Source: Candidatus Anaerostipes avistercoris
GTDB taxonomy: Bacteria; Bacillota; Clostridia; Lachnospirales; Lachnospiraceae
Assembly (NCBI GenBank): GCA_019119895.1
Contig: DWWD01000022.1
Span: 1 to 58,024 of the forward strand
Reading direction: 5' to 3'
DNA: 58,024 nt
Of the stretch, positions 10,446 to 57,756 are shown piece after piece. Numbering within the stretch: position 1 is the stretch's first letter; each line of letters opens with the position of its first letter. The translations under genes and the position numbers were made by a program. The notes below the pieces were generated by a model. It had not been told where the DNA came from, ran no database searches, and saw nothing but the letters and a program-made list of their open reading frames with translations.

Positions 10446-12112
<1,667 letters not shown>

Positions 12113-15589: not shown

Positions 15590-15619
15590 TCTCAAAACTC
15601 ACGTATTTACGTGGGTTTT
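15588..15619 (+). repeat. 32-bp direct repeat, copy 1, at the 3' end of ssrA (also terminator)
   Basis: Identical to 16824-16855. It starts on the last two bases of tmRNA and contains the ACTCACGTA/TACGTGGGT stem followed by a T-rich run, so it also ends ssrA transcription. Just downstream lie GTGTTGCA (15628) and GTGCTGCA (15639), spaced like arm sites of tyrosine integrases. It is a likely attachment-site relic. Confidence 0.75.
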
Positions 15620-40081: not shown

Positions 40082-40082
40082 T

Positions 40083-41077: not shown

Positions 41078-41103
41078 TACCATAAAGTTAGTAAAAGCTA
41101 ACT
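41078..41103 (+). promoter_or_regulatory. -10 box and TTAG-N6-CTAA operator, ABC transporter operon
   Basis: TACCAT (41078-41083) is followed by AGTTAG (41086-41091), six bases, CTAACT (41098-41103). The same dyad follows the -10 of the second enolase (44694-44717) and of the methyltransferase (57708-57723). The -35 region is poor, which fits AraC activation. Confidence 0.6.
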
Positions 41104-41124
41104 AAAAAAGGAGGAGATATTTCA

Positions 41125-42888
41125 ATGTCAGTATTAAGATCACTGTTTGCATATGCAGGCAGACATAAGTATCTGACGATGCTCTCACTGCTTTTTTCTT
41201 TTATCAGTGCGGTATTTCTGCTGATGCCGTTTCTGTGGATTTGGAAAGTAGTGGAAGAAATTTTAAAAGTGTATCCTGATTTTGGGCAGGCGGCAGACGC
41301 GGCAAAATATGGCTGGTACGCACTGATAAGCGCGGCAGCAGGAATCCTTATTTATGTAGCATCGCTGCTGTGTTCTCATCTTGCGGCATTTCGGATTGCG
41401 GCAAATATGAGAAAAACGGCCATGCACCATGTGGTTACACTGCCGCTGGGATACTTTTCAAAAGAAGGAAGCGGAAAACTGCGTAAGATCATCGATGAAT
41501 CCGCCGCTTCCACTGAGACATATCTGGCGCATCAGCTGCCGGACAGTGTCCAGCTTATGACGACAGTGATTGGAGTCCTGATCTGTCTGTTTGTCTTTAA
41601 CTGGAGATTCGGTGCAGCAGTTCTGATCGCTCTTATTTTTGCTTTCCTAAATATGATGAAGATGGTTGGAAAGGGACTGCAGGAATCTATGAAAGCTTAT
41701 ATGGATGCCCTGGAGGGAATGAGCAATGAAGCGGTGGAATACATCCGGGGGATTCCTGTAGTAAAAACATTTCAGCAGACAGTGTATTCTTTTGAGCGAT
41801 TTTATAAGTCGATTAAAAATTATGAGAAATTTGCTCTTGGGTATACCAACCAGATGAGGATGCCGATGACGCTGTTTACAACATTGATCAACAGCGTATT
41901 TGTCTTTTTGATTGGAACCATGGCCCTGCTTATAGCTTATGGATTCGACGCAGGAGCGCTGATGCCGGATTTTATGTTTTATGTGATCTTTACCCCGATC
42001 GTAGCGGTTACTGCCAATAAAATGATGTTTGCCAGTGAAAATAACATGCTGGCAAAAGACGCGGTGCAGAGAATGGAAGGGATTACAAAAGAAAAAGCAT
42101 TTCAGTATCCGGAAAAGGGCCGGAAGATAAAGAATCACGATATTGTATTTGATCACGTGTCCTTTACCTATCCGGGAAGCGAAGCGGAAGTGCTTCACGA
42201 TATCAGCCTGGAGATAAAAGAGAATACCACGGTGGCATTTGTAGGAAAGAGTGGAGGCGGCAAATCGACGCTGGTCTCTCTGATCCCAAGATTTTATGAC
42301 GTGACAGAAGGAGCTGTTTTGATTGGCGGTGTGAATGTAAAAAATATGACAGAAGAAGAACTGATGGATCAGGTTTCTTTCGTGTTCCAGGATAACCGGC
42401 TCCTGAAAAAAACGCTGAGAGAAAATATCAAAATGGGGCTGGAAGCAGATGATCCGGCTGTTCTGGAAGCTGCCAAAAAGGCGCAGTGCATGGAAATACT
42501 GGAGAAATTTCCGCAGGGACTGGATACAGAGATTGGAAGCAGCGGCGTTTACCTGTCCGGCGGAGAAACTCAGCGAATGACTCTTGCCAGAGCGATTCTT
42601 AAAAATGCGCCGATCCTGCTTCTTGACGAAGCAACGGCATATGCGGACAGCGACAATGAACTTCTGATGCAGAGAGCAATCCGGGAACTGTCCCAAAATA
42701 AAACAACGATCATGATTGCACACCGTTTGTCCACCATTGTAAATGCGGATTGTATTTATGTGATCGATGACGGCAGGATCCTGGAAGCAGGTTCCCATAA
42801 GGAATTGTTAAAGAAAAATGGAGAATATGCTCGGATGTGGCGTCAATACAGCCAGTCCGTTGAGTGGAAAGCAGGTGAGACAGCATGA
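41125..42888 (+). CDS. ABC half-transporter, permease plus ATPase (1)
   Basis: A 587-residue exporter-type subunit: six transmembrane helices (about 15-300) followed by an ATPase domain with Walker A GKSGGGKST, signature LSGGE, Walker B ILLLDEATA and the switch IMIAHRLST. The Q of the signature LSGGQ is replaced by E. It forms a heterodimer with the next gene, whose start overlaps the stop (ATGA). Resembles YbtP/YbtQ-type pairs that import metal-siderophores despite the exporter fold; the substrate is unproven. Confidence 0.88.
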   Translation: MSVLRSLFAYAGRHKYLTMLSLLFSFISAVFLLMPFLWIWKVVEEILKVYPDFGQAADAAKYGWYALISAAAGILIYVASLLCSHLAAFRIAANMRKTAMHHVVTLPLGYFSKEGSGKLRKIIDESAASTETYLAHQLPDSVQLMTTVIGVLICLFVFNWRFGAAVLIALIFAFLNMMKMVGKGLQESMKAYMDALEGMSNEAVEYIRGIPVVKTFQQTVYSFERFYKSIKNYEKFALGYTNQMRMPMTLFTTLINSVFVFLIGTMALLIAYGFDAGALMPDFMFYVIFTPIVAVTANKMMFASENNMLAKDAVQRMEGITKEKAFQYPEKGRKIKNHDIVFDHVSFTYPGSEAEVLHDISLEIKENTTVAFVGKSGGGKSTLVSLIPRFYDVTEGAVLIGGVNVKNMTEEELMDQVSFVFQDNRLLKKTLRENIKMGLEADDPAVLEAAKKAQCMEILEKFPQGLDTEIGSSGVYLSGGETQRMTLARAILKNAPILLLDEATAYADSDNELLMQRAIRELSQNKTTIMIAHRLSTIVNADCIYVIDDGRILEAGSHKELLKKNGEYARMWRQYSQSVEWKAGETA

Positions 42889-44624
42889 TAGAGAAAATTC
42901 AAAGAAGATTTGCGCTGACACGGCCCGGCGCGGTGAACCTTGTAAAAGCGTGTGTGTCCTGTACCATATCATACCTTGTCATAGCCATGTCCATAGGTAT
43001 TTTGTATTTCTTTACCTGTGATCTGATCGGAATATTCCGGACCGGCACCGGAATGCCGGAATATGGAATCTATGCGGTACAATGTGCGGTTGTAGTGATT
43101 CTGATTTTTGCGGCGCATTATGTACAGTATAATATGACATTTTTTAATACTTATACAGAGAGTGCAAGACTGAGGATCAGTGTAGCAGAGCGGCTTAGGA
43201 AGTTCCCGCTTCGATTCTTTTCCAGAAGAGATCTGTCTGATCTGACAACAACGATTTTATCGGATGTCACAGGAATGGAGCAGGCATTGTCACATTTTAT
43301 TCCGGAATTTGCCGGCTCGGTCATTTCAACTGCGCTGCTTTCCATTGGAATGTTTTTCTTTGATGTGAAAATGGCGGCAGCAGCCGTATGGTGTGTGCCG
43401 GTATCTTTTCTGCTGGTATTTCTGGCGAAGAAAAAATTAAGCCAGGCAGGGAAGAAAGACCGGAAGATCCAGCTGGTAAGAACAGAAAAAATTCAGGAAG
43501 GACTGGAGTCTGTAAAAGATCTGAAGGCCGGCCGGTATATGGAATCTTATATAAAAGAAGTGGATGACGCCATTGACCGGTGTGAAAAAAGTCAGATTGT
43601 AACGGAACTGACCAATGCCTTGTTTGTTGTAAGCTCTCAGCTGATATTGAAACTTGGAATTGCGACCGTAGTGATTTTTGGAGTGAAATATCTGATCAGC
43701 GGAGAGATTTCTCTGGAAATTTTTATGCTGTTTTTAATTGTAGCTTCCAGGCTTTATGATCCGTTAAATGCGACGCTTCAGAATCTGGCTGCGATCATAA
43801 GCTGTGATCCGAAGATTGACCGTCTGAATGAAATCAATGAATACCCGCTCCAGGAAGGAAAAGACCGTATGGAACCGGACGGATATGATATCCAATTTGA
43901 AAATGTAACATTTTCTTATGAAAAAGGAAAGCCGGTCCTTAAAAATGTCAGTTTTACGGCGAAACAGAATGAAATCACCGCATTGATCGGCGGCAGCGGA
44001 GGCGGAAAGACAACCTGCGCGTCTCTTGCGGCCAGGTTTTATGAGCCGGATGCCGGAAGGATCACAGTTGGAGGAGTTGATATTTCCACGGTGGATCCGG
44101 AAGTGCTTTTATCTGATTTTTCCATTGTATTTCAGGATGTGGTTTTATTTAATGCAAGTATTATGGAAAATATCCGAATCGGGAAAAAGGACGCCACAGA
44201 CGAAGAGGTTATGAGAGCCGCCCAAATGGCCTTTTGTGATGAATTTGTCCGGGAAATGCCCGATGGATATCAGACCGTCATAGGAGAAAACGGATCCAGA
44301 CTGTCCGGAGGACAGCGGCAGAGGATCTCTATTGCCAGAGCCATGTTAAAAGATGCGCCGATGATTCTGCTGGATGAAGCCAGCGCTTCATTAGATGTGG
44401 AAAGTGAGACCTATGTTCAGCAGGCATTATCGAAGTTGATCGAAGGCAAAACGGTTATTATGATCGCTCATCGCATGCGTACTGTGGCAAAAGCCTCCCA
44501 TCTGATTGTTTTGGAAGACGGGCAGATTGCGGAGGAAGGCACGCCGGAAGAACTGCTGAAACAGGATGGTATTTATAAACGGATGACGGATCTGCAGCAC
44601 GCAGCCGGACAGTGGAAGATATAG
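42885..44624 (+). CDS. ABC half-transporter, permease plus ATPase (2)
   Basis: A 579-residue partner subunit with six N-terminal membrane helices and an ATPase domain: Walker A IGGSGGGKTT, LSGGQRQRISIARA, Walker B MILLDEASASLD, IMIAHRMRT. It overlaps the previous gene by four bases (ATGA), so the two are translationally coupled and expected to pair. Together with the AraC gene upstream this is a regulator-transporter cassette, plausibly for iron or another metal complex. Confidence 0.88.
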   Translation: MIEKIQRRFALTRPGAVNLVKACVSCTISYLVIAMSIGILYFFTCDLIGIFRTGTGMPEYGIYAVQCAVVVILIFAAHYVQYNMTFFNTYTESARLRISVAERLRKFPLRFFSRRDLSDLTTTILSDVTGMEQALSHFIPEFAGSVISTALLSIGMFFFDVKMAAAAVWCVPVSFLLVFLAKKKLSQAGKKDRKIQLVRTEKIQEGLESVKDLKAGRYMESYIKEVDDAIDRCEKSQIVTELTNALFVVSSQLILKLGIATVVIFGVKYLISGEISLEIFMLFLIVASRLYDPLNATLQNLAAIISCDPKIDRLNEINEYPLQEGKDRMEPDGYDIQFENVTFSYEKGKPVLKNVSFTAKQNEITALIGGSGGGKTTCASLAARFYEPDAGRITVGGVDISTVDPEVLLSDFSIVFQDVVLFNASIMENIRIGKKDATDEEVMRAAQMAFCDEFVREMPDGYQTVIGENGSRLSGGQRQRISIARAMLKDAPMILLDEASASLDVESETYVQQALSKLIEGKTVIMIAHRMRTVAKASHLIVLEDGQIAEEGTPEELLKQDGIYKRMTDLQHAAGQWKI

Positions 44625-44661
44625 CGGAAGAATAAATGAGAAAAATAGCCGGCAGCATGTC

Positions 44662-46090
<1,429 letters not shown>

Positions 46091-46125
46091 AGACTGAGAA
46101 TAAGAGACGCAGAAAGGAGATGGAT

Positions 46126-46689
46126 ATGTCGTTTATCCAGAAAGAAATCAGTGATTTTACCGTTCAGGCATATGTGGACGGCGGCTTTAAAGAAGTGACC
46201 AAAGAAGATGTTTTAGGAAAATGGAGCGTATTTTTCTTCTATCCGGCAGATTTTACATTTGTGTGCCCGACAGAACTGGAAGATCTGGCAGATAAATATG
46301 AAGAATTCAAAAACATCAATTGTGAGATTTACAGTGTATCCTGTGATACGCACTATGTTCATAAAGCATGGCATGACGCTTCCAAAACCATCCAGAAGAT
46401 TCAGTATCCGATGCTGGCGGATCCGACAGGAGCGCTTGCAAGAAGCTTTGATGTGATGATCGAAGAGGACGGAGTGGCAGAGAGAGCCAGCTTTATCGTG
46501 AATCCGGAAGGAAAGATCGTGGCGTATGAAGTGATTGCCGGAAATGTCGGAAGAAACGCGGACGAACTGTTCCGCCGGGTTCAGGCGTCACAGTTTGTTG
46601 CTCAGCACGGAGATGAGGTTTGCCCGGCAAAATGGAAACCGGGAGCAGAGACCTTAAAGCCAAGTCTCGATCTTGTAGGACTGATCTGA
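46126..46689 (+). CDS. ahpC: Alkyl hydroperoxide reductase C, 2-Cys peroxiredoxin
   Basis: A 187-residue peroxidase reducing H2O2 and organic hydroperoxides. Peroxidatic Cys47 lies in DFTFVCPTELE, the resolving Cys in GDEVCPAKWKPG. The canonical length of 187 and MSFIQKE support ATG 46126 (AAAGGAG 7 bases ahead) over 46120. It is followed by a reductase partner after a hairpin. Confidence 0.96.
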   Translation: MSFIQKEISDFTVQAYVDGGFKEVTKEDVLGKWSVFFFYPADFTFVCPTELEDLADKYEEFKNINCEIYSVSCDTHYVHKAWHDASKTIQKIQYPMLADPTGALARSFDVMIEEDGVAERASFIVNPEGKIVAYEVIAGNVGRNADELFRRVQASQFVAQHGDEVCPAKWKPGAETLKPSLDLVGLI

Positions 46690-46711
46690 TTTCAATTACA
46701 TATTTACAGAT

Positions 46712-46745
46712 GTTTCCCGCCTTTTCATGGAAGGCGGGAAATTTT
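46712..46745 (+). terminator. Hairpin between ahpC and the AhpF-like gene
   Basis: TTTCCCGCCTT/AAGGCGGGAAA, perfect 11 bp, followed by TTTT. It probably sets the AhpC excess over its reductase. Confidence 0.8.
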
Positions 46746-46764
46746 ATCAAAAAGGAGAAACATT

Positions 46765-48402
46765 ATGGAAATAGAAAAGAATCTTTACGATGCGGTCATC
46801 GTCGGAGGCGGACCGGCAGGATTGTCAGCAGCGATTTATCTTGCCCGCGCAAAATATCGTGTGCTGGTTGTGGCTAAGGATGGAACTGGGGGACAGATTT
46901 CCATCACATCAGAAGTTGTTAATTATCCGGGAATTGAGAAGATCAGCGGGAAGGAACTGACCGCTTCCATGCGAAGACAGGCAGAAAATTTCGGCGCAGA
47001 ATTTGTGACCGGGGAAGTTCTTCATATGGAACTTGAAAAAGAAATTAAGGAAATTAAAACAACCCGGGGAGATTACAAAGCCCTGGGAGTGGTCCTGGCA
47101 ACCGGAGCCAATCCAAGGAAAATCGGATTCAAAGGGGAACGGGAGTTTCAGGGAAGAGGCGTCGCTTACTGTGCCACCTGCGACGGTGAATTTTTCACCG
47201 GAAAGAAAGTGTTTGTAATCGGAGGAGGATTTGCCGCGGTGGAAGAGGCCATTTTTCTGACAAGATATGCCAGAGAAGTAACGATTCTGGTGAGGGGTGA
47301 TTCTTTCTCCTGCGCGAAATCAGTGTCGGATCGGCTGGAAAATTACGATAAGATTGAAGTGAAATTCCATACAGAGCTGGTGGAGGCCGATGGAGATCAG
47401 CTGGTGACCCGGGCAGAATTTTATAATAATCAGACGAAAGAAACATGGGAATATGAAGCCGGAGCCGATGGAAATTTTGGAATCTTTGTATTTGCGGGAT
47501 ATGTGCCGAACACCGAGTGGATCGGTCCGGAAGTGGAGAAAAATGAACAGGGATACCTGCTCACTGACAGCAATCAGAAAACAAATCTGGACGGCGTATA
47601 TGCGGCAGGTGATGTATGCGTCAAACAATTAAGACAGGTGGTAACAGCAGTCTCCGATGGCGCTTCTGCGGCGACCGCACTGGAAAAAGCCGCGGCAGAA
47701 CTGCATACAAAGCTGAATCTTCCGGATCTGGTGCAGGAAAAAACTGCTGAAACTGCAGTAGAAGATGAGACGCCGGGCCTGCAGGAAAACGGATTTTTCG
47801 ATGCTTCCATTTATCGTCAGCTGGAGCCGGTTTTCCGGAAGTTTGAACAGAAAGTAAAGATCAGGGCATGGCTGGATGATCAGCCGCTCTCCGGAGAAAT
47901 CCGGGGATTTCTGAGGGAACTGACGGGTATGACCGATCAGGTAACATGGGAAGAAATAAAAGGATCAGAAGGCAGAGCGCCGATGCTTCCGGCCATGGAA
48001 TTATGCTATGAAAATGGGCAAAGCAGCGGCATTTGGTTTCACGGGGTTCCGGGAGGCCACGAATTTAATTCCTTTGTGGTAGCTCTTTATAATACGGCAG
48101 GACCGGGGCAGGAAATCAGTCCGGAACTGGAAGAAAGGATCCGAAAGATCGATCAGCCGGTCAATATAAAAGTATTGGTATCCTTATCCTGCACCATGTG
48201 CCCGGAACTGGTCATGGCATCACAGAAAGCAGCATCTGTTTCTGATAAAATAGAAGCGGAAATGTTCGATTTGATGCATTATTCGGAATTGAAGGAAAAA
48301 TACCAGCTGATGAGCGTTCCGTGCATGATCATAAACGATAAGGACGTATACTTTGGAAAGAAAAATCTGGAAGAACTGATAGGAATACTGGAAGGGGAAT
48401 AA
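46765..48402 (+). CDS. AhpF-like disulfide reductase with permuted domain order
   Basis: A 545-residue flavoprotein. Residues 1-310 are a thioredoxin-reductase module: FAD loop GGGPAG (14-19), redox pair CATC (136-139), NAD(P)H loop GGGFAAVEEA and GVYAAGDVC. Residues 345-545 are a tandem thioredoxin-fold module with redox pair CTMC (476-479) and ENGQSSGIWFHGVPGGHEF, as in the N-terminal domain of AhpF. In E. coli AhpF the order is reversed. Placed next to ahpC, it most likely recycles oxidised AhpC with NAD(P)H. The cytosolic function is well supported by context. Confidence 0.88.
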   Translation: MEIEKNLYDAVIVGGGPAGLSAAIYLARAKYRVLVVAKDGTGGQISITSEVVNYPGIEKISGKELTASMRRQAENFGAEFVTGEVLHMELEKEIKEIKTTRGDYKALGVVLATGANPRKIGFKGEREFQGRGVAYCATCDGEFFTGKKVFVIGGGFAAVEEAIFLTRYAREVTILVRGDSFSCAKSVSDRLENYDKIEVKFHTELVEADGDQLVTRAEFYNNQTKETWEYEAGADGNFGIFVFAGYVPNTEWIGPEVEKNEQGYLLTDSNQKTNLDGVYAAGDVCVKQLRQVVTAVSDGASAATALEKAAAELHTKLNLPDLVQEKTAETAVEDETPGLQENGFFDASIYRQLEPVFRKFEQKVKIRAWLDDQPLSGEIRGFLRELTGMTDQVTWEEIKGSEGRAPMLPAMELCYENGQSSGIWFHGVPGGHEFNSFVVALYNTAGPGQEISPELEERIRKIDQPVNIKVLVSLSCTMCPELVMASQKAASVSDKIEAEMFDLMHYSELKEKYQLMSVPCMIINDKDVYFGKKNLEELIGILEGE

Positions 48403-48448
48403 AAGTTTATTAGAATCTGTATTAAGGGCAAAAGAATAACTTAAATAA

Positions 48449-48495
48449 AGCAGCAAATCGGGATTTTATGTCCTGGTCTGCTGTTTTCTTTAAAA
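48449..48495 (+). terminator. Probable terminator after the AhpF-like gene
   Basis: An AGCAG ... CTGCT based imperfect stem with inner GGGA/TCCT, then TTTTCTTT. Confidence 0.5.
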
Positions 48496-48585
48496 TGACG
48501 GAAAATATAGAAAGAAGTCTGAAAAAACAATGACCGGATTTGCAGACTATGATATGATGTAGAAAAAAGGAGAAGGGGTGGAGTT

Positions 48586-49416
48586 ATGTCCGTTGCTGTA
48601 GAAATAAAACAGAATCAAGATGACAGTAAAAAATTGACATTAGAGGATATCATACGGATTTCAGGATTGTCTTATGGAATAGCGGATGCCAATTACCGGC
48701 TGATTGACAATGAAACCGGGGATTATACGCTGTTGTTTGAAACAGGACGGCTGGCCAGAGGCATTGAAGTTTCATTTGATCAGCAGAATATTCTGCTGAG
48801 ACTCAGTCTGCCGACCAGCAGGAAAGAGATTCATTGTTTTTATGAAACGATTCGTAAAATATGTGATCGGAAGGAAACCAGACAATTTCTCCACGAGGAG
48901 GGATGGAAGGATTTGGATGATATTCCCGGTCTCATAGAAAATGATATCCGGGCAAGTACTGGTGCGCTGGAAGATCTGTGGGAGAAAGTAAAGGAAGATG
49001 AATATAAACATTTTCAGGTATTTGGTGTGTGTTTCCCCATTTCACTGGGAAAGAGAGAACTGGAAGAGATTGCGAACGATTTGAATCAATTTGCTGATTT
49101 TATGAATCGGCTGCAGTCGATGAATGTTTACTATTCTGCGCCTAAAGTTTATGATGTCCGCGGCAGGCTGACCGGTATTTATTTTACAGACGCTAATCTT
49201 CCAACGGTTTTTCCGACGGAACCATATATTGTCATGAACCAGGTGGAAGGAATCGAGGAATGGTATGTTATGTTGAAAGACCAGAGGACTATACCGTATC
49301 AGGATTTTATTGGATTCATCCGTGATATGGAATATTTTGACGCTGATCATATTCTGTTTGTGCTGACAGAAGAAGAGGTACAGATGCTGGCGGATCATTA
49401 TGCAGTGGAGATTTAA
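48586..49416 (+). CDS. DUF4299-like protein
   Basis: A 276-residue soluble protein. It opens with basic/acidic linker then LTLEDIIRISGLSYGIADANYRL and contains repeated acidic helical stretches, with FPTEPYIVMNQVEG near residue 210. This matches my memory of the DUF4299 family in Firmicutes. No catalytic motif can be identified. A GGGGTGG binding site precedes the ATG. It is followed by a small membrane protein. Confidence 0.55.
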   Translation: MSVAVEIKQNQDDSKKLTLEDIIRISGLSYGIADANYRLIDNETGDYTLLFETGRLARGIEVSFDQQNILLRLSLPTSRKEIHCFYETIRKICDRKETRQFLHEEGWKDLDDIPGLIENDIRASTGALEDLWEKVKEDEYKHFQVFGVCFPISLGKRELEEIANDLNQFADFMNRLQSMNVYYSAPKVYDVRGRLTGIYFTDANLPTVFPTEPYIVMNQVEGIEEWYVMLKDQRTIPYQDFIGFIRDMEYFDADHILFVLTEEEVQMLADHYAVEI

Positions 49417-49439
49417 AAATACGGAAGGTGAGCAATCAT

Positions 49440-49775
49440 ATGAATATAGGTTTTTGGTGCTGTATTGCTTTAGTGCCTGTTTTTTTCATTACAGCAATTT
49501 TATTTGCGGTTTTTAAAGGAAAATGTACGAAATATATTACTGGATTTAACAGTCTGCCTAAAAAAGAACAGCCTCTCTATGATCAGGAGGCAATGGCGAA
49601 AGATATGAGAAATTCTTATTTGCTGTACGCATTGATTATGCTGCTTGGAGCAGTTTTTTCTGTGATTCTCAGTCCATATTCAGCGGCGGCAGCTTATCTT
49701 ATCTGGGGATATTTCTTTTTCCGGGAGGTTCATGTGGATCCGCACAAAGCGTTCGAAAAGTATCTGATAAAATAG
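49440..49775 (+). CDS. DUF3784-like small membrane protein
   Basis: A 111-residue protein with three hydrophobic segments (about 6-27, 60-78, 80-95) separated by a loop KYITGFNSLPKKEQPLYDQE, typical of DUF3784-type small membrane proteins. ATG 49440 is chosen over GTG 49428 by the position of GGAAGGTG. Function unknown. A related protein is at 55741. Confidence 0.6.
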   Translation: MNIGFWCCIALVPVFFITAILFAVFKGKCTKYITGFNSLPKKEQPLYDQEAMAKDMRNSYLLYALIMLLGAVFSVILSPYSAAAAYLIWGYFFFREVHVDPHKAFEKYLIK

Positions 49776-49912
49776 GGATAGAAGCGCAGAGAAAGAAACT
49801 GGAAGCGGAAGGGCATACCATCATTCAAAAAGGACGTAAGAATATCAGATATTTTGTAAAAGACTATGAGAATGTTCTGTTTGACTGCAGGGAGATAGAA
49901 AATGAAGGGTAA
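49768..49912 (+). pseudogene. Remnant encoding a short basic protein tail
   Basis: In frame 2 the sequence reads DKIGIEAQRKKLEAEGHTII then GRKNIRYFVKDYENVLFD and stops at TAA 49910-49912, clearly coding in character, but no start codon or ribosome binding site exists. It is probably a 5'-deleted gene end. No family is recognised. Confidence 0.4.
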
Positions 49913-49992
49913 TGTTTCTGCGTTTTGTTGCGAGATCATCTGGGTCTCCAACATGCAGGCAGGCCTGCTGGGAATAAAAGGGAGGGATTATA

Positions 49993-51429
49993 ATGAAAAT
50001 ACGTTTCATCGAACCGGGAAATCGTCCGTATAAACCTACGCCATTAAATTATTTTGTGTATGACAGATATATCAGAACACCGTCGGTCGGTCTGAATACT
50101 CTGGCAACCATCGTGAAAAAAGAGGAAGAAGATACTTTAATGTACAGTGAAGCCATTTCCAGAATTCCAAAGGATGATATATTGGACGCGGATGTTATAT
50201 TTATAGGAATTTTCACTTTTGCTGCAGTCCGGGGTTACCAGATTGCCCGGTATCTGAAAAAAAGAAGCCGTGCAGTGATTGTAATGGGAGGCCTTCATGC
50301 TTCTATGAATTACAAGGAAGCGGTGCGCTATTGTGACTATGTGCTGATCGGAGAAGGAGATGAGACGATTCTTACATTTCTCAGGGCACTGAAGAATAAG
50401 AAACCGATGGACTTCCCGGGGATTGCATACCGGCGGAATGGAAAAAATGTGTATACAGGATACCCTTGTCCACCGAAGAATATTGAGACAATCCCTGATC
50501 GTAATCTGGTGTACCGGTACCAGAAAATGGCCGGGCACAGCACTATATGGCCGCAGGTGCATGCATCCAGAGGATGTCCGCATAATTGTGATTATTGCGC
50601 TTTAGTTCGTCATTTCGGTCATAAAGTCCGGACCAGGTCACCTGAGAATGTTGTGGAAGATATCCGCCGGTCTATTGAATTTTTTGATAAAAAACATTTT
50701 CGCCTGACCAAAGGCCTCTGGATTACCGATGACAATTTTTTTGCAGACAGGGAATGGGCAAAAGCGGTATTAAATGAAATCATTGACAGCAAAATCCGGT
50801 ATCGGTTTAATGTTCAGGCCAGATATGAAGTGGGATTTGATGATGAAATGCTGGATCTGTTGAAAAAAGCCGGATTTTTCGAACTTGACATGGGGATTGA
50901 ATTTCTGGACGATCAGTCTTTTCAGACCTATCACAAGAAAAGCACCAGGGACGAGATTATTAAATCCATTCGGAACATCCAGAGGCATGGTCTCAGTGTC
51001 AGAGGGCTTTTTATTCTGGGATCAGATGATCAGCGGAAGGGCGTAGGGGATCAGCTTGCAGAGTTTGTGATAGAAAATCACATCCAGGGTGTGCTGATTC
51101 AATCCATGTATTTTGTTCCGGGGACTCCTGTTTACAAAACTCACAGGAAGAGTCTTCTGCATACGAACTGGGCTCTTTACAATGGAAATGTTGTTCATCA
51201 TCCGAAAAATATGACGGCATATGAACTGCAGCTGGAACATATCCGGGCAAGCAAAAAAATTTATTCCGTAAAACGGCTGATTCATGCATTGATTCATGAA
51301 GACTATATCCATAAAGTTTTGTTTTTGGGAGAATTTTTCTGGCATATGAGTGTGCGGTCGGATTTGAGAAAACAGCTTCCGTATCTGAAAGAAGCATCGC
51401 GAAAAAGACAGAAGAGGATTAGAACATGA
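49993..51429 (+). CDS. B12-binding radical SAM enzyme
   Basis: A 478-residue enzyme. Residues 1-150 form a cobalamin-binding Rossmann domain (DADVIFIGIFTFAAV, GGLHASMNYKEA, DYVLIGEGDET). The radical SAM domain has the cluster motif CPHNCDYC (Cys195, Cys199, Cys202) preceded by SRG. GRDYN-type binding site GGGAGG precedes the ATG. These enzymes methylate unactivated carbons or catalyse related chemistry; the substrate is unknown. It overlaps the next gene by 4 bases (ATGA), which encodes a membrane methyltransferase. Confidence 0.85.
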   Translation: MKIRFIEPGNRPYKPTPLNYFVYDRYIRTPSVGLNTLATIVKKEEEDTLMYSEAISRIPKDDILDADVIFIGIFTFAAVRGYQIARYLKKRSRAVIVMGGLHASMNYKEAVRYCDYVLIGEGDETILTFLRALKNKKPMDFPGIAYRRNGKNVYTGYPCPPKNIETIPDRNLVYRYQKMAGHSTIWPQVHASRGCPHNCDYCALVRHFGHKVRTRSPENVVEDIRRSIEFFDKKHFRLTKGLWITDDNFFADREWAKAVLNEIIDSKIRYRFNVQARYEVGFDDEMLDLLKKAGFFELDMGIEFLDDQSFQTYHKKSTRDEIIKSIRNIQRHGLSVRGLFILGSDDQRKGVGDQLAEFVIENHIQGVLIQSMYFVPGTPVYKTHRKSLLHTNWALYNGNVVHHPKNMTAYELQLEHIRASKKIYSVKRLIHALIHEDYIHKVLFLGEFFWHMSVRSDLRKQLPYLKEASRKRQKRIRT

Positions 51430-51962
51430 AGGAGAAAACATTGAACGGATTTTTGTTACTGATTCCTTTCTTATTGATAAGGTTCCTGCTGCTTTCGATT
51501 TTAAATAAAGAAGCAGTTGGCAGAGCGGCCTATTTTGCGCCAATGCAGGGAAGGGAACGAACAGCATACTGGATCTATCAGATATCAAATGTCGGAATTT
51601 TTGCAGGCCCATTCTTTTTGAACGTTCCAATTGATTTTTCGATGCCATTTTATCTGGGGATATTTCTGTATTCTCTTGGCCTGTTTTTATGCGCTGCTGC
51701 CATGGTAAGTTTCTCTTCACCGGACCGTTCGGGATTCAGTAAAAACGGAATTTATCGATTTTCACGAAATCCAATGTATCTGGCATATTTCATCTGTTTC
51801 CTTGGAATGTGTCTTTTAACCCGATCTCTGATTCTGCTGGGGATTGTATTGATATTTCAGTTTTCCGCCCATTGGATTATTCTTGCGGAAGAGAGATGGT
51901 GTATAGAAAAGTTTGGAGAAGAGTATATCGAATATATGAAGCAGGTGCGACGCTATATATGA
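51426..51962 (+). CDS. Membrane methyltransferase, ICMT/PEMT-like
   Basis: A 178-residue protein with four to five membrane segments and the isoprenylcysteine-methyltransferase/PEMT motif: GIYRFSRNPMYLAYF, then EERWCIEKFGEEYIEYMKQVRRY. Such enzymes use SAM to methylate lipid-like or prenyl substrates in the membrane. Translation is coupled to the upstream radical SAM gene, suggesting a two-step modification of a shared hydrophobic substrate, which is inference. Confidence 0.72.
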   Translation: MKEKTLNGFLLLIPFLLIRFLLLSILNKEAVGRAAYFAPMQGRERTAYWIYQISNVGIFAGPFFLNVPIDFSMPFYLGIFLYSLGLFLCAAAMVSFSSPDRSGFSKNGIYRFSRNPMYLAYFICFLGMCLLTRSLILLGIVLIFQFSAHWIILAEERWCIEKFGEEYIEYMKQVRRYI

Positions 51963-52015
51963 TTGATTCATTTTTGCTGCAGAAAGTTTATCTTGAGATA
52001 TTGAAGAGATGAAAA

Positions 52016-52465
52016 ATGGAGATTAGGAAATATAAACAATCAGACTGCAGGATTTTAACAGACTTGTTTTATAATACAGTTCATACTGTTAATGCCAAAG
52101 ATTATACAAAGGAGCAGCTTGACGTATGGGCAGATGGAAAAGCAGATTTAAAAAAATGGAACCGGTTACTCCAGGAACATTACAGTATAGTAGCTGTTGA
52201 AAATGAAACGATTGCAGGATTTGGTGATATAGATCTGACAGGTTACCTTGATCACTTATTTGTTCATGCAGATTATCAGGGAAAAGGGATTGCAACAGCT
52301 ATTTGCGATCAATTGGAGCAGGCGGTTCAGGGAAATATTACCACTCACGCCTCTATTACAGCAAAAGCTTTTTTTGAAAAAAGAGGATATAGAGTTCTCA
52401 AAGAACAGCAGATAGAAAGACAGGGAATTTTCCTGACAAATTATGTTATGGTGAAAGAACGATAA
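52016..52465 (+). CDS. GNAT acetyltransferase
   Basis: A 149-residue single-domain GNAT: IRKYKQSDCRILTDLFYNTV, VENETIAGFGDID, LFVHADYQGKGIATAICDQLE (acetyl-CoA loop QGKGIA), AFFEKRGYRVLK. It looks complete. The substrate is unknown; possibly antibiotic or protein N-acetylation. A second GNAT follows after 19 bases. Confidence 0.82.
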   Translation: MEIRKYKQSDCRILTDLFYNTVHTVNAKDYTKEQLDVWADGKADLKKWNRLLQEHYSIVAVENETIAGFGDIDLTGYLDHLFVHADYQGKGIATAICDQLEQAVQGNITTHASITAKAFFEKRGYRVLKEQQIERQGIFLTNYVMVKER

Positions 52466-52484
52466 GTGGAAAAGGGATTATAAC

Positions 52485-52946
52485 ATGAAAAATGAGATTT
52501 TATTACTTGATGAAAAATCGGTAAATGATTTTTGGCGTTTAAGAATAGAGTTGTTTCAAGAATTAGAGGAAGTCAGCAAAGATGCAGACTGCACCCAATT
52601 AGAATCAGCAACGAAACAATATTATGTATCACATATAAATAAAGATTTGATCAGCTGGGGAGTCTTTCAGGAAGGACAACTGGCCGCGACAGGATCTTTA
52701 TGTCTGTTTACTCGAATTCCGTATAATGAAAATCTAAGTGGGTTGGAGGGATATATTTTAAATATATATACTTCTAAACAATTTAGAGGAAATGGTTTTG
52801 CAAATCAGATTTTAGATAATATGATTGAATACAGTTATAAAAATAATATCAAAAGATTATGGCTCAACAGTAGTGAACAGGGAAAACACTTATATACGAA
52901 AAAGGGATTCATCCAGAAAAATAATGAAATGGAGCTTTTTTTATAA
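52485..52946 (+). CDS. GNAT acetyltransferase
   Basis: A 153-residue GNAT: VFQEGQLAATGSLCLF, GYILNIYTSKQFRGNGFANQILDN (acetyl-CoA loop RGNGFA) and HLYTKKGFIQKNNEMEL. It follows another GNAT, probably in one transcript, and precedes a GNAT remnant. Function unknown. Confidence 0.8.
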   Translation: MKNEILLLDEKSVNDFWRLRIELFQELEEVSKDADCTQLESATKQYYVSHINKDLISWGVFQEGQLAATGSLCLFTRIPYNENLSGLEGYILNIYTSKQFRGNGFANQILDNMIEYSYKNNIKRLWLNSSEQGKHLYTKKGFIQKNNEMELFL

Positions 52947-52956
52947 GTGACTTTCA

Positions 52957-53148
52957 ATGGAAATGTTTAGATATGTCCGTTTTGCAGGAGGGAAAATGTA
53001 TCGTAATGTAAAGGAACATTTTGAATATTTTTGGTGTTTGTTTGACGGAAGTCATATGATTGGCACGGCGGCGCTGAAGAAATTAGATGAAAAACGATAT
53101 GAATTAAAATCGCTGTATCTTCTGAAGAAATATCATAAAAGAGGAGAG
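52957..53148 (+). pseudogene. GNAT-domain remnant
   Basis: The frame encodes a GNAT middle segment (FDGSHMIGTAALKKLDEKRYELKS, LYLLKKYHKRG), then ends at the position where the acetyl-CoA loop should begin and continues into the ankyrin gene's ribosome binding site. No binding site precedes the ATG. Both ends of the gene are lost. Confidence 0.6.
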
Positions 53149-53152
53149 GGAA

Positions 53153-53520
53153 ATGAAGAAATTGTTTACTGTAATTCGACAGGGAAAACTGGACGAAGTG
53201 AAGCGGCTGATTGAAAAAAGCCTGAATTGGTTCATTGTGTTTCAGGACCGCAGCCAAAGAAAGATCATGGACAGTCGCCTCTTCAGGTTGCGCTGAAAAC
53301 AGGAAAATATGAAATTGCCGATTATTTAATTGAGCATGGTGCAGACTATGCAGCCTGGGCGAGAAGAGGATGTTATGCACAACCGTATCCAGGACCCAGC
53401 AATAAGAGCATGTATCTGGACGATTTTGTGCCGGGAGAAGGAATAACTATTGATAAAAAGAAAGAAATGAGAGCGTTTATGCAGGAATACTTCAGAAACA
53501 GAAATTTGCATGTTGAATGA
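53153..53520 (+). pseudogene. Ankyrin-repeat protein gene with a frameshift
   Basis: ATG 53153 after GAGGAGAG starts MKKLFTVIRQGKLDEVKRLIEK. At an A6 tract near 53213-53218 one base appears missing: the next frame continues with ELVHCVSGPQPKKDHGQSPL and ALKTGKYEIADYLIEHGAD, a normal ankyrin repeat. The sequence after that (YAAWARRGCYAQPYPG) no longer looks ankyrin-like, suggesting a further deletion. The gene is broken. Confidence 0.65.
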
Positions 53521-53657
53521 AAGGTTGACACTCCCGGGATAAAATCAGGAAAGCCCTGTTTTGGCGGATGCAACCCCTCGTTGCGCATCTGCAACCGTAT
53601 TTTGGTGGCGTGTTGTCAGTAAAAGCTGTATGCTGACAGCGAAAGGAGGACATAAAA

Positions 53658-54401
53658 ATGACTTTTGGAGAAAAAATACAGAAATTAAGAAAAGAAGCGG
53701 GATTGTCTCAGGAAGAACTTTCTTATCAGCTGGGAGTATCCAGGCAGGCAATCAGCAAATGGGAGCGCGACAAGGGATATCCTGAAACAGAAAAGATTGT
53801 TCGCATGAGCAGGATTTTTCATGTGACGCTGGATTATCTGCTGAATGAGGAACAGGAATCAGAACAGGCTCTAGAATCAGGAGAACAGGGTTTTTATGTA
53901 AGCAGGGAAACAGCAGATGGTTTTCTTCTGTATCAGAAACATAAATTTCTGAGAATAGCGATTGCAGCAGGTATATTGGTCGAAAGCCTTGCACTCTCAT
54001 TTATGTCTTCAGATATTTCCATGCTTTTGTTTATGCTGCTGGTAATCGCTGGTATTGTTCTTTTGTTTTCTGTTAAGCTGGATGATAATCCCTATCGGAA
54101 ACTCTGGAAGGAGCCGCTCTTATTTGATCAGGAAGTAAAAGCCGAATTGAATACAGCCTACGCTGAAAAGAAAAAGACCCTGCAGCTGTTTCATCTTACA
54201 GGGATAGCACTGATAGCATTAGGTTTTCTCTTTTTTCCACTGATTGTTCCGGCTGAGTTTGTCCTGCTGGACAACATCGCTTTGGCTGCGGGTATGCTTG
54301 CTGCAGGAATCGGAACATTTTTATGTATTTATATGTCCGGTCTGATACGGGCTTTTCGGCTTTTGGTTATGAATGAAAATGTTCAGCGGAAGAAAGGGTG
54401 A
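53658..54401 (+). CDS. XRE-family regulator with C-terminal membrane domain
   Basis: A 247-residue protein: N-terminal XRE helix-turn-helix (IQKLRKEAGLSQEELSYQLGV, SRQAISKWERDKGYPETE) to about 62, linker, then four hydrophobic segments (about 95-135 and 172-235). Such membrane-tethered regulators usually control a neighbouring lipoprotein or transporter. AAAGGAGG precedes the ATG. It is followed at 54409 by a lipoprotein gene. The sensed signal is unknown. Confidence 0.82.
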   Translation: MTFGEKIQKLRKEAGLSQEELSYQLGVSRQAISKWERDKGYPETEKIVRMSRIFHVTLDYLLNEEQESEQALESGEQGFYVSRETADGFLLYQKHKFLRIAIAAGILVESLALSFMSSDISMLLFMLLVIAGIVLLFSVKLDDNPYRKLWKEPLLFDQEVKAELNTAYAEKKKTLQLFHLTGIALIALGFLFFPLIVPAEFVLLDNIALAAGMLAAGIGTFLCIYMSGLIRAFRLLVMNENVQRKKG

Positions 54402-54408
54402 GGATATT

Positions 54409-54849
54409 ATGAAAAAATCAATGATGATCATGCTGACAGCAGTGCTGGTGCTGCTTTGCGGCTGTCAGACGGGAGAGGGTGCGGATACTTCCGATTATAA
54501 GGATGATATGGCAAAGGCACAGGAAATCACAGTTGTTTCGGCCGATACGTCGGAGGTTCTTGAGACTATGACCGCTAAAGAAGATATCGAAGATTTTGTT
54601 CAGACACTGCGCCTGGACGAATGGGAATCAAAGGAGCTTCCGGAAGGAGCAGATCCGGTTGGTGAATTTGTATTCTCCCAGGAAGAAACCGTAAAAAACG
54701 GACAGACAGAAACGGATGGAAGATTATATGACATGGCAGCTGTCACTCTTTATGAGGATTCTTATATTCAGTTTGAGATAAGCGGTCTGGACATGACATT
54801 TAAAGTGAGTCAGAAAACTGCGGATGATTTAAATAGATATTTCAAATAA
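54409..54849 (+). CDS. Lipoprotein of unknown function
   Basis: A 146-residue exported lipoprotein. The signal peptide ends at a CGC lipobox (Cys19), then an acidic domain containing ITVVSADTSEVLETMTAKED and a C-terminal MTFKVSQKTADDLNRYF. No domain is recognised. GGGTGAGGA precedes ATG 54409. It is 7 bases after the XRE membrane regulator and is its likely partner. Confidence 0.65.
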   Translation: MKKSMMIMLTAVLVLLCGCQTGEGADTSDYKDDMAKAQEITVVSADTSEVLETMTAKEDIEDFVQTLRLDEWESKELPEGADPVGEFVFSQEETVKNGQTETDGRLYDMAAVTLYEDSYIQFEISGLDMTFKVSQKTADDLNRYFK

Positions 54850-54864
54850 ATTTGGAGGATGGAT

Positions 54865-55650
54865 ATGAATATTACGAATAAAAAGATAGATGAAGGGAAG
54901 CCGTTTGACTGGGGAAGGACCTCTCTGGATTATGCAAAGTATCGTGATATATATCCACAGCTTTTCTATGATAAGATTATCAGCCGCGGATTATGTATCA
55001 CGGGACAGAAGGTTCTTGATCTGGGAACAGGCACGGGAGTGCTGCCAAGAAATTTGTATCGTTATGGTGCAAAATGGACAGCTGTGGATATTTCAGAAAA
55101 TCAGATTGAACAGGCTGAAATTCTTTCAAAAGATATGGAAATTGATTATTATGCTGTTTCAGCAGAAAATATCTGTTTCCAAGATCAATATTTTGATGTT
55201 ATTACGGCGTGCCAATGCTTTTGGTATTTTGATCATCAGCAGGTAATGCCTGAATTATTTCGTGTGTTGAAAGATGGAGGCAGCATACTTGTGCTGTATA
55301 TGGCATGGCTGCCTTTTGAAGATAAAATTGCCGGAGCCAGTGAGAAACTTGTTTTGAAATATAATCCCAAATGGAGCGGAGCGGGAGAGAAAGTTCATCC
55401 GATTAACATACCTGCCTGCTACGGAGAGAGGTTCGAACTGGTTTATCATGATGAATACCGATTAAAAGTGCCGTTTACCCGTGAAAGCTGGAACGGAAGA
55501 ATGAAGGCATGCCGAGGAATCGGTGCTTCGCTGACAGAAAAAGAAATAGCCATGTGGGAACAGGAACACAGAGAACTTCTTAACCGCATTGCTCCTGAAA
55601 AATTTGATATTTTACATTATGGAGCGCTTGCTGAGCTGAGAAAGGGATAG
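54865..55650 (+). CDS. SAM-dependent methyltransferase, class I
   Basis: A 261-residue methyltransferase. VLDLGTGTGVLPRNLYRYGAK is SAM motif I, AVDISENQIEQAE motif II, and ENICFQDQYFDVITACQCFWYFD motif post-II. The C-terminal half has no second recognised domain. ATG 54865 is preferred over 54859 on GGAGGA spacing. It is soluble; substrate unknown. A related small DUF gene follows. Confidence 0.82.
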   Translation: MNITNKKIDEGKPFDWGRTSLDYAKYRDIYPQLFYDKIISRGLCITGQKVLDLGTGTGVLPRNLYRYGAKWTAVDISENQIEQAEILSKDMEIDYYAVSAENICFQDQYFDVITACQCFWYFDHQQVMPELFRVLKDGGSILVLYMAWLPFEDKIAGASEKLVLKYNPKWSGAGEKVHPINIPACYGERFELVYHDEYRLKVPFTRESWNGRMKACRGIGASLTEKEIAMWEQEHRELLNRIAPEKFDILHYGALAELRKG

Positions 55651-55740
55651 ACAGTTCTTTTCTGTCTGATAACTTTTTACTAATTGTACCTCTGCCATAT
55701 CCTCCGTTATAATAGACTTAAGAGGAAGGGGTGATGCGGT

Positions 55741-56061
55741 ATGGAAAATGTACTTTTTTTTGTTGTGATGGAAGGGTGCAGCGCATTGTTTTTATACCTG
55801 GGATATTTGCTGTGGAAAAAAGAAAAAATTAATGTGATGCATGATTACCATTATACAAAGGTAAAAGAAAAAGATAAAAAAGCATACACAAGCGTTATGG
55901 GAAAAGCCATGATATTAATGGGAATCGGAATGACTATTTCAGGAGTGATCGGCGTGTTCACAGTTTCGGTTAAGAGTGGAATTCCGGCATGTGTTACGTT
56001 TGTTGCTGGACTATGCATTATGATATACGGACAAATAAAATATAACCATGGTATTTTTTAG
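55741..56061 (+). CDS. DUF3784-like small membrane protein
   Basis: A 106-residue protein with three hydrophobic segments (about 3-24, 55-75, 83-98) and the loop KVKEKDKKAYTSVMGKAMIL, which is the DUF3784 pattern. GGAAGGGG precedes the ATG. Function unknown; similar in type to 49440. Confidence 0.6.
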   Translation: MENVLFFVVMEGCSALFLYLGYLLWKKEKINVMHDYHYTKVKEKDKKAYTSVMGKAMILMGIGMTISGVIGVFTVSVKSGIPACVTFVAGLCIMIYGQIKYNHGIF

Positions 56062-56156
56062 AGAGGTTGGTTTATAAGATAAGTTGCTTAAAACCAATGG
56101 AAATATGAGATGGTAATATAAAGAAGATGAGTTTTGTTGATTGAAGTCTTTGCAAA

Positions 56157-56294
56157 ATGCTGCGAAAATCCATTGCGAAAAAGAATCCGGACGAGTATGA
56201 AATTTGGGAAAAGACACTGATGGCAGCAGGCGATGAAGATCGTAACTGGACAGACAGAAAATATCTCAGGCCCATATTAGAGGCAATTCGATAA
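56157..56294 (+). pseudogene. C-terminal gene remnant
   Basis: A coding-like frame MLRKSIAKKNPDEYEIWEKT, then GDEDRNWTDRKYLRPILEAIR, stop at 56292-56294. No ribosome binding site; the initial Met is incidental. It resembles the tail of a longer protein. Family not recognised. Confidence 0.4.
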
Positions 56295-56391
56295 ATTGTA
56301 AAGAATCCGGGCATCTTTGATGACGATACTTGGTAGAAGCAGTTCCTATCTGATTGTATGATAGAAAGGTATAAATGATAGGAGGAGAACG

Positions 56392-56520
56392 ATGAATTTA
56401 GGAAACAGTTTATTTCATGCAAGAAAAAAATGCAGTCTTTCACAGGAAAAAGTCGCAGAGAAATTAGGTGTCAGCAGACAGACGGTTTCGAAATGGGAAA
56501 CCGGGGTTTCACTTAGTTAA
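56392..56520 (+). pseudogene. XRE regulator interrupted by mobile element
   Basis: ATG 56392 follows GGAGGAG. Residues 1-37 are a complete XRE start (LFHARKKCSLSQEKVAEKLG, VSRQTVSKWETG). After WETG the sequence becomes SLVSLS-type foreign code and stops at TAA 56518-56520, where element sequence begins. The regulator has lost its C-terminal part. Confidence 0.75.
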
Positions 56521-56580
56521 AGATACCACATCAATCCCACGCTGACTTTTGCTCAACCGATACAGCCGGAGGGCTGGATA

Positions 56581-56634
56581 ACAAGAAAAGGCGGTATGCG
56601 CCCCTTGGAGGGGTAGCGTACCGCCTTTTCTTGT
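56581..56634. repeat. Perfect 16-bp inverted repeat
   Basis: ACAAGAAAAGGCGGTA (56581-56596) and its exact complement (56619-56634) enclose a CCCC/GGGG inner stem. It can act as a bidirectional terminator or an element-end structure. Confidence 0.7.
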
Positions 56635-56642
56635 GGGGGTTT

Positions 56643-56715
56643 CCAAAGGGGGCAACGCCCCCATTTGGCACACGACTTTGCGAAGCAAAGTGTAGTGTGT
56701 TATACGCTCTGACTT
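56643..56715. other. oriT-like region of the element
   Basis: A hairpin with GGGGGC/GCCCCC (56643-56668) is followed by the dyad ACTTTGC-GAA-GCAAAGT (56675-56691) and GTGTGTTATACGC, a nick-region-like tail. MOB-P conjugative elements have such an inverted repeat immediately ahead of the nick. No relaxase gene is in the window to confirm. Confidence 0.4.
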
Positions 56716-57070
56716 GTGGACAAAGTGTCCCGAAGTTGTGGCCACACTCTCGGAAAAATAGCAGAACAGCGGGCAACCGTCAAGACTGAAATGAACGGGT
56801 TTACACCCGGCCTTGACCGCCGCCCGCCGTTCCGCTGAATGGATGGACAAGGCGACCAATCCCTCAAAGTGCTTGGCCGCACTCTTTCCAATTTTGAAGT
56901 GCTTCTTTTCTCGAAATTGAAATGGGAGGGAAGCCATTTTAGGGCTTTCCCGCCTTGATTACCCTTTAGCAAAGACGGGCGGGGCTGTCAACGGCGGCGC
57001 ACTTGTGCGCCGTTCATCTTGACCGTTGACTGGCTCGGCTGGCTTTGCTATTTCACGAATAATAAAAGAA

Positions 57071-57688
57071 TTACATCTTAATTTTTTTACAAACTACGCA
57101 GAGCCAGCCTTTTTTATTTTTGTGTATTTTTATGTCTGTAAAACCAGCGTTCTCTAAAGATTTTTTAACTTGTTCAGAATTGTATATTTTCATTCCTTGT
57201 ATCATTTTAGTCCACTTTTCTTCTTTGGGATTTTCTCCATTTGACTCGTTGCAAATCATAAAAGTTCCAGTATTTTTTAAAACTCTATATACTTGCTTAA
57301 AAGCGCCACTAATATCAGGCCAAAAATATATTGTTTCAAATGCAGTAATCACATCAAAAGTTTCATTTTCAAACGGAAGTTCCATTACATTACCTTGTAA
57401 GATTTTGCAACGCTTATTTGATATTTCTGCTTTGTTGATTTTTTGAGATTTTTCCACACTGATTTCTGAGTAATCAATACCCGTCACTTTGCCGTGAGGA
57501 CTTTTTTCTAACAGTTTTTTAACATTGGCACCACCGCCACACCCAATATCCAGACATATATTATTCTCAGCAATTTCTATATGTGTAAAGCCCCATTCAG
57601 CCATAGATGAATGTCCTGAATTCATCATATTAACCATAATTTTCCCGCCAATTCCTTTTGGCTTGCAAGTATTTTGAAAAAAAGACAT
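57071..57688 (-). CDS. SAM-dependent methyltransferase, element cargo
   Basis: A 205-residue class I methyltransferase: ICLDIGCGGGANVKKLLE (motif I), VTGIDYSEISVEKSQKI (motif II), ELPFENETFDVITAFETIYFWPD (motif post-II). AAAGGAG precedes the ATG at 57688 on the minus strand. AT-rich compared with its surroundings. A TTAG-N6-CTAA operator lies in its promoter, linking it to the ABC transporter and enolase/ahpC promoters. Substrate unknown. Confidence 0.82.
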   Translation of the reverse strand: MSFFQNTCKPKGIGGKIMVNMMNSGHSSMAEWGFTHIEIAENNICLDIGCGGGANVKKLLEKSPHGKVTGIDYSEISVEKSQKINKAEISNKRCKILQGNVMELPFENETFDVITAFETIYFWPDISGAFKQVYRVLKNTGTFMICNESNGENPKEEKWTKMIQGMKIYNSEQVKKSLENAGFTDIKIHKNKKGWLCVVCKKIKM

Positions 57689-57707
57689 ACACAATGCTCC
57701 TTTCGGC

Positions 57708-57756
57708 GTTAGTTGTAGCTAATTTAGATTATATCTCACTTCCTTTTTGGCGGCAA
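57708..57756 (-). promoter_or_regulatory. Promoter and TTAG-N6-CTAA operator of the methyltransferase
   Basis: On the minus strand TTGCCG (57756-57751), 17 bp, TATAAT (57733-57728), then after 4 bases ATTAG (57723-57719), six bases, CTAAC (57712-57708). The same dyad and position occur at 41086 and 44694. Confidence 0.68.

Follow-up and report, generated by a model that had tools for sequence, protein, structure and literature searches.

The closest described counterparts of the system considered here are repressors of the DtxR family. IdeR and DtxR recognise a 19-bp iron box, TTAGGTTAGSCTAACCTAA, with four CCTAA repeats of which every IdeR dimer reads two, and a single dimer can bind TTAGGNNNNCCTAA, that is TTAG-N6-CTAA (available text of PMC8464063). 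A smaller member, EqbA, has no SH3 domain, carries Asn13 and Cys104 and binds with Fe2+, with Zn2+ and incompletely with Mn2+; its operator at eqbB, on ICESe2 of Streptococcus equi, has GTTAG-ATGTAT-CTAAC at the centre of a palindrome (available text of PMC3672683). Within the family Met10 and Cys102 have been tied to Fe selectivity, and Asp or Asn together with Glu to MntR (available text of PMC10317159). Here we describe short inverted repeats (dyads) of the type GTTAG-N6-CTAAC in Candidatus Anaerostipes avistercoris (Lachnospiraceae). Three of them lie in a stretch of 58,024 nt, called the window below, which is the whole of contig 48 (DWWD01000022.1, assembly GCA_019119895.1) of a host genome (G000) of 2.83 Mb in 49 contigs. 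On the sequence evidence, the dyads are very probably operators of one iron regulon under P0001, a two-domain DtxR-family repressor lacking the SH3 domain.

All three dyads of the original prediction were recovered at their positions. Operator 1 (41086..41103; AGTTAG-TAAAAG-CTAACT, 6-bp arms) lies 23 bp before the first of a pair of ATP-binding cassette (ABC) transporter genes. Operator 2 (44694..44717; GATAGTTAG-CGATGA-CTAACTATC), with the perfect 9-bp arms that had been claimed for it, precedes a second enolase gene (enolase-2), and AGTTAG-N6-CTAACT is common to these two sites. Operator 3 (57708..57723; GTTAG-TTGTAG-CTAAT), at a methyltransferase gene, is imperfect, with its symmetry limited to the 4-bp core. 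TTAG-N6-CTAA occurs three times in the window against 0.52 expected, with at least three in 1 of 100 shuffles, and GTTAG-N6-CTAAC with at most one mismatch likewise occurs three times against 0.52 (4 of 100 shuffles). A position just after a -10 box, as had been proposed for all three, was supported by the consensus promoter scan at site 3, which starts 4 bases after the best promoter of the three (TTGCCG-17-TATAAT, 10/12; 57728..57756, minus strand). No promoter was called by the scan at sites 1 and 2, for which weak elements on the plus strand were picked out by eye, each ending 3 bases before its dyad: a possible -10, TACCAT, with no visible -35 (41078..41083) at site 1, and a possible promoter, TTGATT-17-TACATT (8/12; 44662..44690), below the scan threshold at site 2.

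In the host genome GTTAG-N6-CTAAC was found 14 times, against 2 matches for the same arms at the twelve other spacers between 0 and 12, and one of these two overlaps a spacer-6 site. All 14 perfect sites are intergenic, one of them overlapping only an improbable 73-codon antisense open reading frame (ORF). A called gene lies downstream of 13, and the fourteenth (C7:41833) sits at the promoter of a candidate small RNA (sRNA). The outer G of each arm is fixed by the search pattern, while the inner G occurs in 1 of the 28 half-sites. The other spacers were the main control; a reversed pattern, which has a different dinucleotide make-up and exceeds the real one for pooled spacers 0–12 and for the 4-bp core, was kept only for the fixed-spacer family count below. 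The core TTAG-N6-CTAA was not enriched genome-wide, occurring at 26 places, about the window shuffle expectation scaled to 2.83 Mb, so the argument rests on the 5-bp arms; the enrichment anticipated in the original prediction thus holds for the arms at their spacer and fails for the core.

Target genes were named from Pfam, NCBIfam and ORF reading. They comprise feoA-feoA-feoB, whose upstream region contains two perfect dyads and one near-perfect one, with one (C3:29691) overlapping a likely -10 as judged by eye; a DUF3793 gene followed by a flavodoxin-like gene; pyruvate formate-lyase (TIGR01255, over cut-off) with its radical-SAM activase; three ABC genes on contig 29 downstream of TetR or AraC genes; a metallo-beta-lactamase-fold protein; and a 359-aa protein encoded opposite a phosphorylase. 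Those in the window are the ABC pair, enolase-2 with ahpC and an ahpF-like gene, and, at the imperfect site, the methyltransferase. The dyad at C29:62709 (L027:7690-7740) lies inside a longer inverted repeat with a T run after it, so that an operator and a possible terminator coincide there.

A regulator with the site in its own promoter had been sought, and both PF02742 genes of the host genome have an operator upstream. P0001 (124 aa; C3:33346-33720) is encoded outside the window beside feoAB, with one perfect and one near-perfect dyad upstream, and P0002 (128 aa; C29:61273) among ABC pairs, with a site 75 bp upstream. Both proteins match PF01325 and PF02742 over cut-off and have no further Pfam domain, the SH3-like third domain being absent. 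An AlphaFold model of P0001, built from a 14-row alignment, had a pLDDT of 91 and matched MntR, IdeR and DtxR chains with TM scores to 0.90. Its metal-site residues are Asn9 (Asp9 in P0002, L076 and L079) and Cys100; the latter, at the position of DtxR C102, does not vary among the 14 aligned proteins, and neither do Glu103-His104 directly after it; the position of DtxR Met10 is taken by Asn or Asp. Judged by these residues, P0001 combines Fe-type and MntR-type ligands, as EqbA does. The two share the absence of SH3, an Asn and a Cys at the same 91-residue distance (Asn9/Cys100 and Asn13/Cys104) and the GTTAG-N6-CTAAC operator, and EqbA itself sits with ABC transporters on mobile DNA. Unlike EqbA, for which one siderophore-type operon with a 36-bp palindrome has been reported, P0001 is chromosomal, feo-linked and has about 14 sites; the likeness is drawn from the available description of EqbA rather than from its sequence.

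The operators bear a similar relation to the iron box. Their core, TTAG-N6-CTAA, is identical to the one-dimer IdeR site and, as the spacer counts indicate, so is their geometry; the 19-bp box, by inspection of its published form, amounts to two such dyads offset by 5 bp. The host sites differ from this canonical box, with its two interleaved dyads and GG inside each half, in their fixed outer G and nearly absent inner G, and in that the dyads are single or 15–26 bp and more apart and not interleaved. The statement that the core was unlike IdeR boxes therefore applies to the full 19-bp box and, on the published descriptions available, to neither the one-dimer IdeR site nor the EqbA palindrome.

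Within the genus, a feo-linked relative of P0001 was present in 11 of 11 genomes, with a FeoB_C match within 3 kb in each, and TTAG-N6-CTAA was found upstream of the repressor in all 11, in G002, G005 and G006 only as GTTAG...CTAAT. Four genomes (G003, G008, G009 and G010) have a single DtxR row and still contain 9–24 dyad-scan matches, of which the spacers were mostly not itemised except in G003. This makes P0001 the likelier general binder; P0002 may share its sites.

A wider sample of 80 named DtxR loci, kept from 574 relatives, contained GTTAG-Nk-CTAAC 56 times at k=6 against 7 times at twenty other values of k up to 20. A site was found somewhere in 29 of the 30 loci with feoB and in 10 of the 50 without it (Fisher p 3e-12, the species not being independent). 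Two dyads exactly 25 bp apart occur upstream of the repressor in L130, L134, L152, L153, L155, L156, L159, L171, L174 and L176, an arrangement that perhaps brings paired dimers onto one face of the helix or serves two promoters. A one-sided dyad, ATTAG-N6-CTAAC (plus strand), lies between feoA and feoB, just before feoB, in L130 (3223), L153 (3207), L155 (3236) and other named loci, and is a possible internal operator. Across 200 genomes of the family, at least one perfect dyad was present in 186, against 145 for the reversed pattern (means 5.9 and 1.8). The mean number of perfect sites was 6.2 in the 188 genomes with a P0001 relative (E up to 1e-10) and 1.7 in the 12 without (p 7e-5), and at 90% completeness or more it was 6.5 against 1.3 (162 and 6 genomes, p 8e-4), these p values being generous because the genomes are related; the reversed pattern was alike in both groups. 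One genome, G167 (3.5 Mb), has 43 perfect dyads against the family mean of 5.9, an expanded regulon.

The window promoters could also be followed in relatives, and the expected conservation in orthologous promoters was observed. An AraC-family regulator gene (40065..41039, plus strand; Pfam HTH_18 and HTH_AraC) precedes the ABC pair, which consists of two half-transporters on the plus strand: the first (41125..42888) of exporter fold, with IrtA among its solved relatives, and the second (42885..44624) with YbtQ among them. Of 14 loci with ABC homologues of 34–100% identity, 12 have a dyad within 110 bp upstream, a count that includes the window and a near-identical copy; one has it about 1 kb upstream and one has none. 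Bacterial matches such as IrtA, YbtQ and 6p6i do not prove siderophore import by the pair, as any exporter-fold transporter matches the others. Enolase-2 (44795..46090, plus; TIGR01060 over cut-off) is 57% identical to the other enolase of the window (10829..12100, plus), which has no operator upstream and serves as an internal control. All seven relatives of enolase-2 in the genus (at least 80% identity) have GTTAG-N6-CTAAC 74–155 bp before the match, the arms being identical and six different spacers occurring among the seven, while the core was found in 0 of 13 other enolases (250 bp upstream). The operator had been assigned to enolase-2 and ahpC together. It goes with enolase-2; ahpC (46120..46689, plus) starts 30 bp past that gene, in what is from position a probable operon, and is not beside enolase-2 in G003. 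The gene for an ahpF-like flavoprotein with a thioredoxin domain follows (46765..48402, plus).

The specificity of arms and spacer, the position of the sites, their placement upstream of the repressor genes, their co-occurrence with P0001 relatives and the footprints in aligned promoters can be read directly from the sequences. That the sites are DtxR-type operators is highly likely, and that iron is the signal sensed is probable. The suggestion of a single metal- or redox-responsive repressor, with DtxR among the candidates, is thereby supported, its metal dependence being our reading of the protein and its targets. We propose that metal-loaded repressor dimers, with Fe(II) as the likely metal and co-repressor, bind GTTAG-N6-CTAAC, one dimer per dyad, and would block RNA polymerase at the promoter start region. 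As iron falls, the dimers would release their operators. The released genes would import iron (feoAB, and probably the ABC pairs) and would exchange iron-rich for iron-poor functions in what would be an iron-sparing response: flavodoxin in place of ferredoxin, pyruvate formate-lyase in place of the iron-sulfur oxidoreductase and AhpCF in place of iron peroxidases. Enolase-2, the methyltransferase and perhaps the sRNA would also be members, the methyltransferase having brought its own site and thereby plugging into the host repressor. Such a regulon is ordinary in kind and apparently undescribed in scope; in a partial literature, searched by titles and the starts of abstracts for DtxR with feo or with such bacteria, no published description of it was found.

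Several observations weigh against this reading. A dyad lies within 300 bp upstream of the repressor in only 25 of the 77 testable named loci (52 have none, and a further 3 are too short), and 40 of the 50 named loci without feoB have no site at all. Among the 15 other DtxR-type rows in the genus, 13 have no site and 2 have one, and 9 of the 188 family genomes with a P0001 relative lack a perfect dyad. Site 3 is imperfect. The best NCBIfam matches of P0001 are MntR models, under cut-off (91 of 153 and 63 of 138 bits), and the Asp/Asn metal ligand of P0001 and P0002 is MntR-like. Finally, SH3-less DtxR members are reported not to respond to Fe2+ in vivo (review PMC7762939, available text).

The likeness to MntR bears on the alternative that the same DtxR-type operators serve an MntR-like regulon in which manganese, or zinc, is the sensed metal, for which we see a small but appreciable chance. 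P0001 resembles MntR in its two-domain size, its fold and its Asp/Asn ligand, with Asn9 or Asp9 at the DtxR Met10 position; MntR is among the best fold and model matches; a ZIP transporter gene lies within a cluster of regulon genes in G092, described below; and EqbA responds to Zn2+ and partly to Mn2+ in vitro (available text of PMC3672683). However, where MntR has its Glu ligand P0001 carries a Cys, which all 14 aligned proteins share at the position of DtxR C102; its scores fall under the MntR cut-offs; and its targets are of the iron type, flavodoxin and pflB among them, with feoAB linked to the repressor in each of the 11 genomes of the genus.

A second alternative concerns site 3 only. 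The S-adenosylmethionine (SAM) methyltransferase gene (57071..57694, minus strand), for whose substrate no NCBIfam model scored over cut-off, lies on acquired DNA, and its site might be a chance core match, which we consider unlikely. The symmetry is 4 bp only, such cores are unenriched genome-wide, and for 5 of 12 distant homologues neither the gene nor its operon shows a site. Set against this, site 3 has the best promoter of the three window sites, and equally imperfect GTTAG...CTAAT dyads precede dtxR in the three genus genomes named above. Searches gave 15 methyltransferase matches in 14 of the 200 family genomes (E up to 1e-60), and three of them share the same DNA and keep the core, with 99.5% identity over 1181 bp to G045 and 96.8% over 950 bp to G038, which belong to two other genera. 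Of the 12 distant homologues, 4 show the core no more than 150 bp upstream, and the number rises to 7 when operon promoters and a site 200 bp away are also counted; two positives, G127 and G143, are near-identical upstream. Since the site lies within DNA shared with two other genera, recent capture of the element gene by a host regulator, one of the two directions originally proposed, is unlikely; some chromosomal homologues elsewhere also have sites. In G092, enolase-2, the methyltransferase, a FUR-family gene, a ZIP transporter, DUF3793 and flavodoxin follow one another in this order, with a dyad before each of enolase-2, the methyltransferase, the FUR-family gene and DUF3793, so that in this genome two of the three targets from the window stand side by side within one regulon. 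At L224:1876-7180 a methyltransferase homologue stands on a single strand with genes for an HMA-domain protein, AraC, DUF6110, a P-type ATPase and TetR, a neighbourhood hinting at a metal-related role.

Judged from an inventory of FUR-family genes and the sites near them, the FUR-family protein encoded next to the repressor is a very improbable binder. Its ORF (C3:34033-34293; L020:11534-11794; 86 aa) is divergent from the P0001 gene and shares its operator region and dyads, and the FUR-family gene of G092 also has a site; but its partial match to the FUR profile covers only about 60 residues, the other of the two FUR-family genes of the host genome (C3:91060) has no nearby site among the 26 core places, and the dyad fits published DtxR-family sites. 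It is just as improbable that each site serves a local AraC, TetR or MarR regulator rather than one repressor. AraC or TetR genes do lie upstream of several ABC pairs, but the sites come after and not before them, and the one dyad recurs at feoAB, enolase-2, pflB and other genes without a common neighbour of this kind. A MarR operator, an early guess from the shape of the dyad, was rejected, as none of the 27 MarR-profile rows comes within 1.6 kb of one of the 26 sites. That the dyads act as RNA hairpins and not as DNA operators is scarcely credible: the arms could pair as short stems, but no Rfam family falls on the dyads, the seven enolase-2 promoters have identical arms and changing spacers with no compensated changes, and the dyad at C3:29691 lies over a likely -10. 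A riboswitch was likewise discarded, the only Rfam match in the window being transfer-messenger RNA (tmRNA), an ordinary gene at 15245-15592.

The fourteenth perfect site, C7:41833, lies downstream of the pyruvate formate-lyase activase gene, between convergent genes (L022:9298-9408). On the activase strand, a promoter (TGGACA-17-TATGAT, 10/12), the dyad, an A-rich stretch and a terminator-like hairpin follow one another. The same order on the same strand, each time with a 10-of-12 promoter, was found after the activase gene in G001, G004 and G007, that is in all four genomes examined, and identity between G000 and G001 falls directly after the hairpin. The predicted RNAs, with ends chosen by us, are 76–92 nt long and fold into a dyad stem, an open stretch and a 3' hairpin with a U/C-rich loop, with no ORF of more than 6 codons. 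The terminator scan called the right strand in two of the four, nothing in G004 and only the other strand in G007; in the latter two it missed the hairpins because loops of more than 8 were excluded, and they were taken from folding of the predicted RNAs. No compensated base pairs were seen in the four-sequence alignment, in which G004 is misregistered. An Rfam search of the sRNA gave no family at gathering, only two weak chance-level matches, and a model (R1) refound its own four sources (L053 repeating the G007 copy) and no further convincing copy in 55 + 80 sources. It is at most a fair guess that the predicted RNA is an iron-repressed sRNA like IsrR of Staphylococcus aureus (available text of PMC9410917). 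Like IsrR, the candidate stands beside an iron-sparing response, its own iron repression being presumed; unlike IsrR, it has a DtxR-type operator and is known from prediction alone, the likeness being drawn from the description of IsrR.

The finding names a specific regulator and its targets, supplies an operator pattern with which any genome of the family can be searched, and offers a natural setting where DtxR sites for a single dimer are the norm. It bears on the statement that SH3-less DtxR members do not sense iron in vivo, connects metal supply with a second enolase and with the acquired methyltransferase, and brings a candidate sRNA into view. Taken as a whole, we give about an even chance to the broader proposition that iron repression in this family and in the wider Clostridia depends mainly on an EqbA-class, SH3-less DtxR protein. 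Acting through single-dimer dyads, this protein would control a full iron-sparing switch of iron import, flavodoxin, pyruvate formate-lyase, AhpCF, a second enolase and a new iron-repressed sRNA, whose hairpin loop, UCUUCCUUCC and variants, could mask the ribosome-binding sites of iron-protein mRNAs, and it would extend to acquired genes that arrive with ready-made operators.

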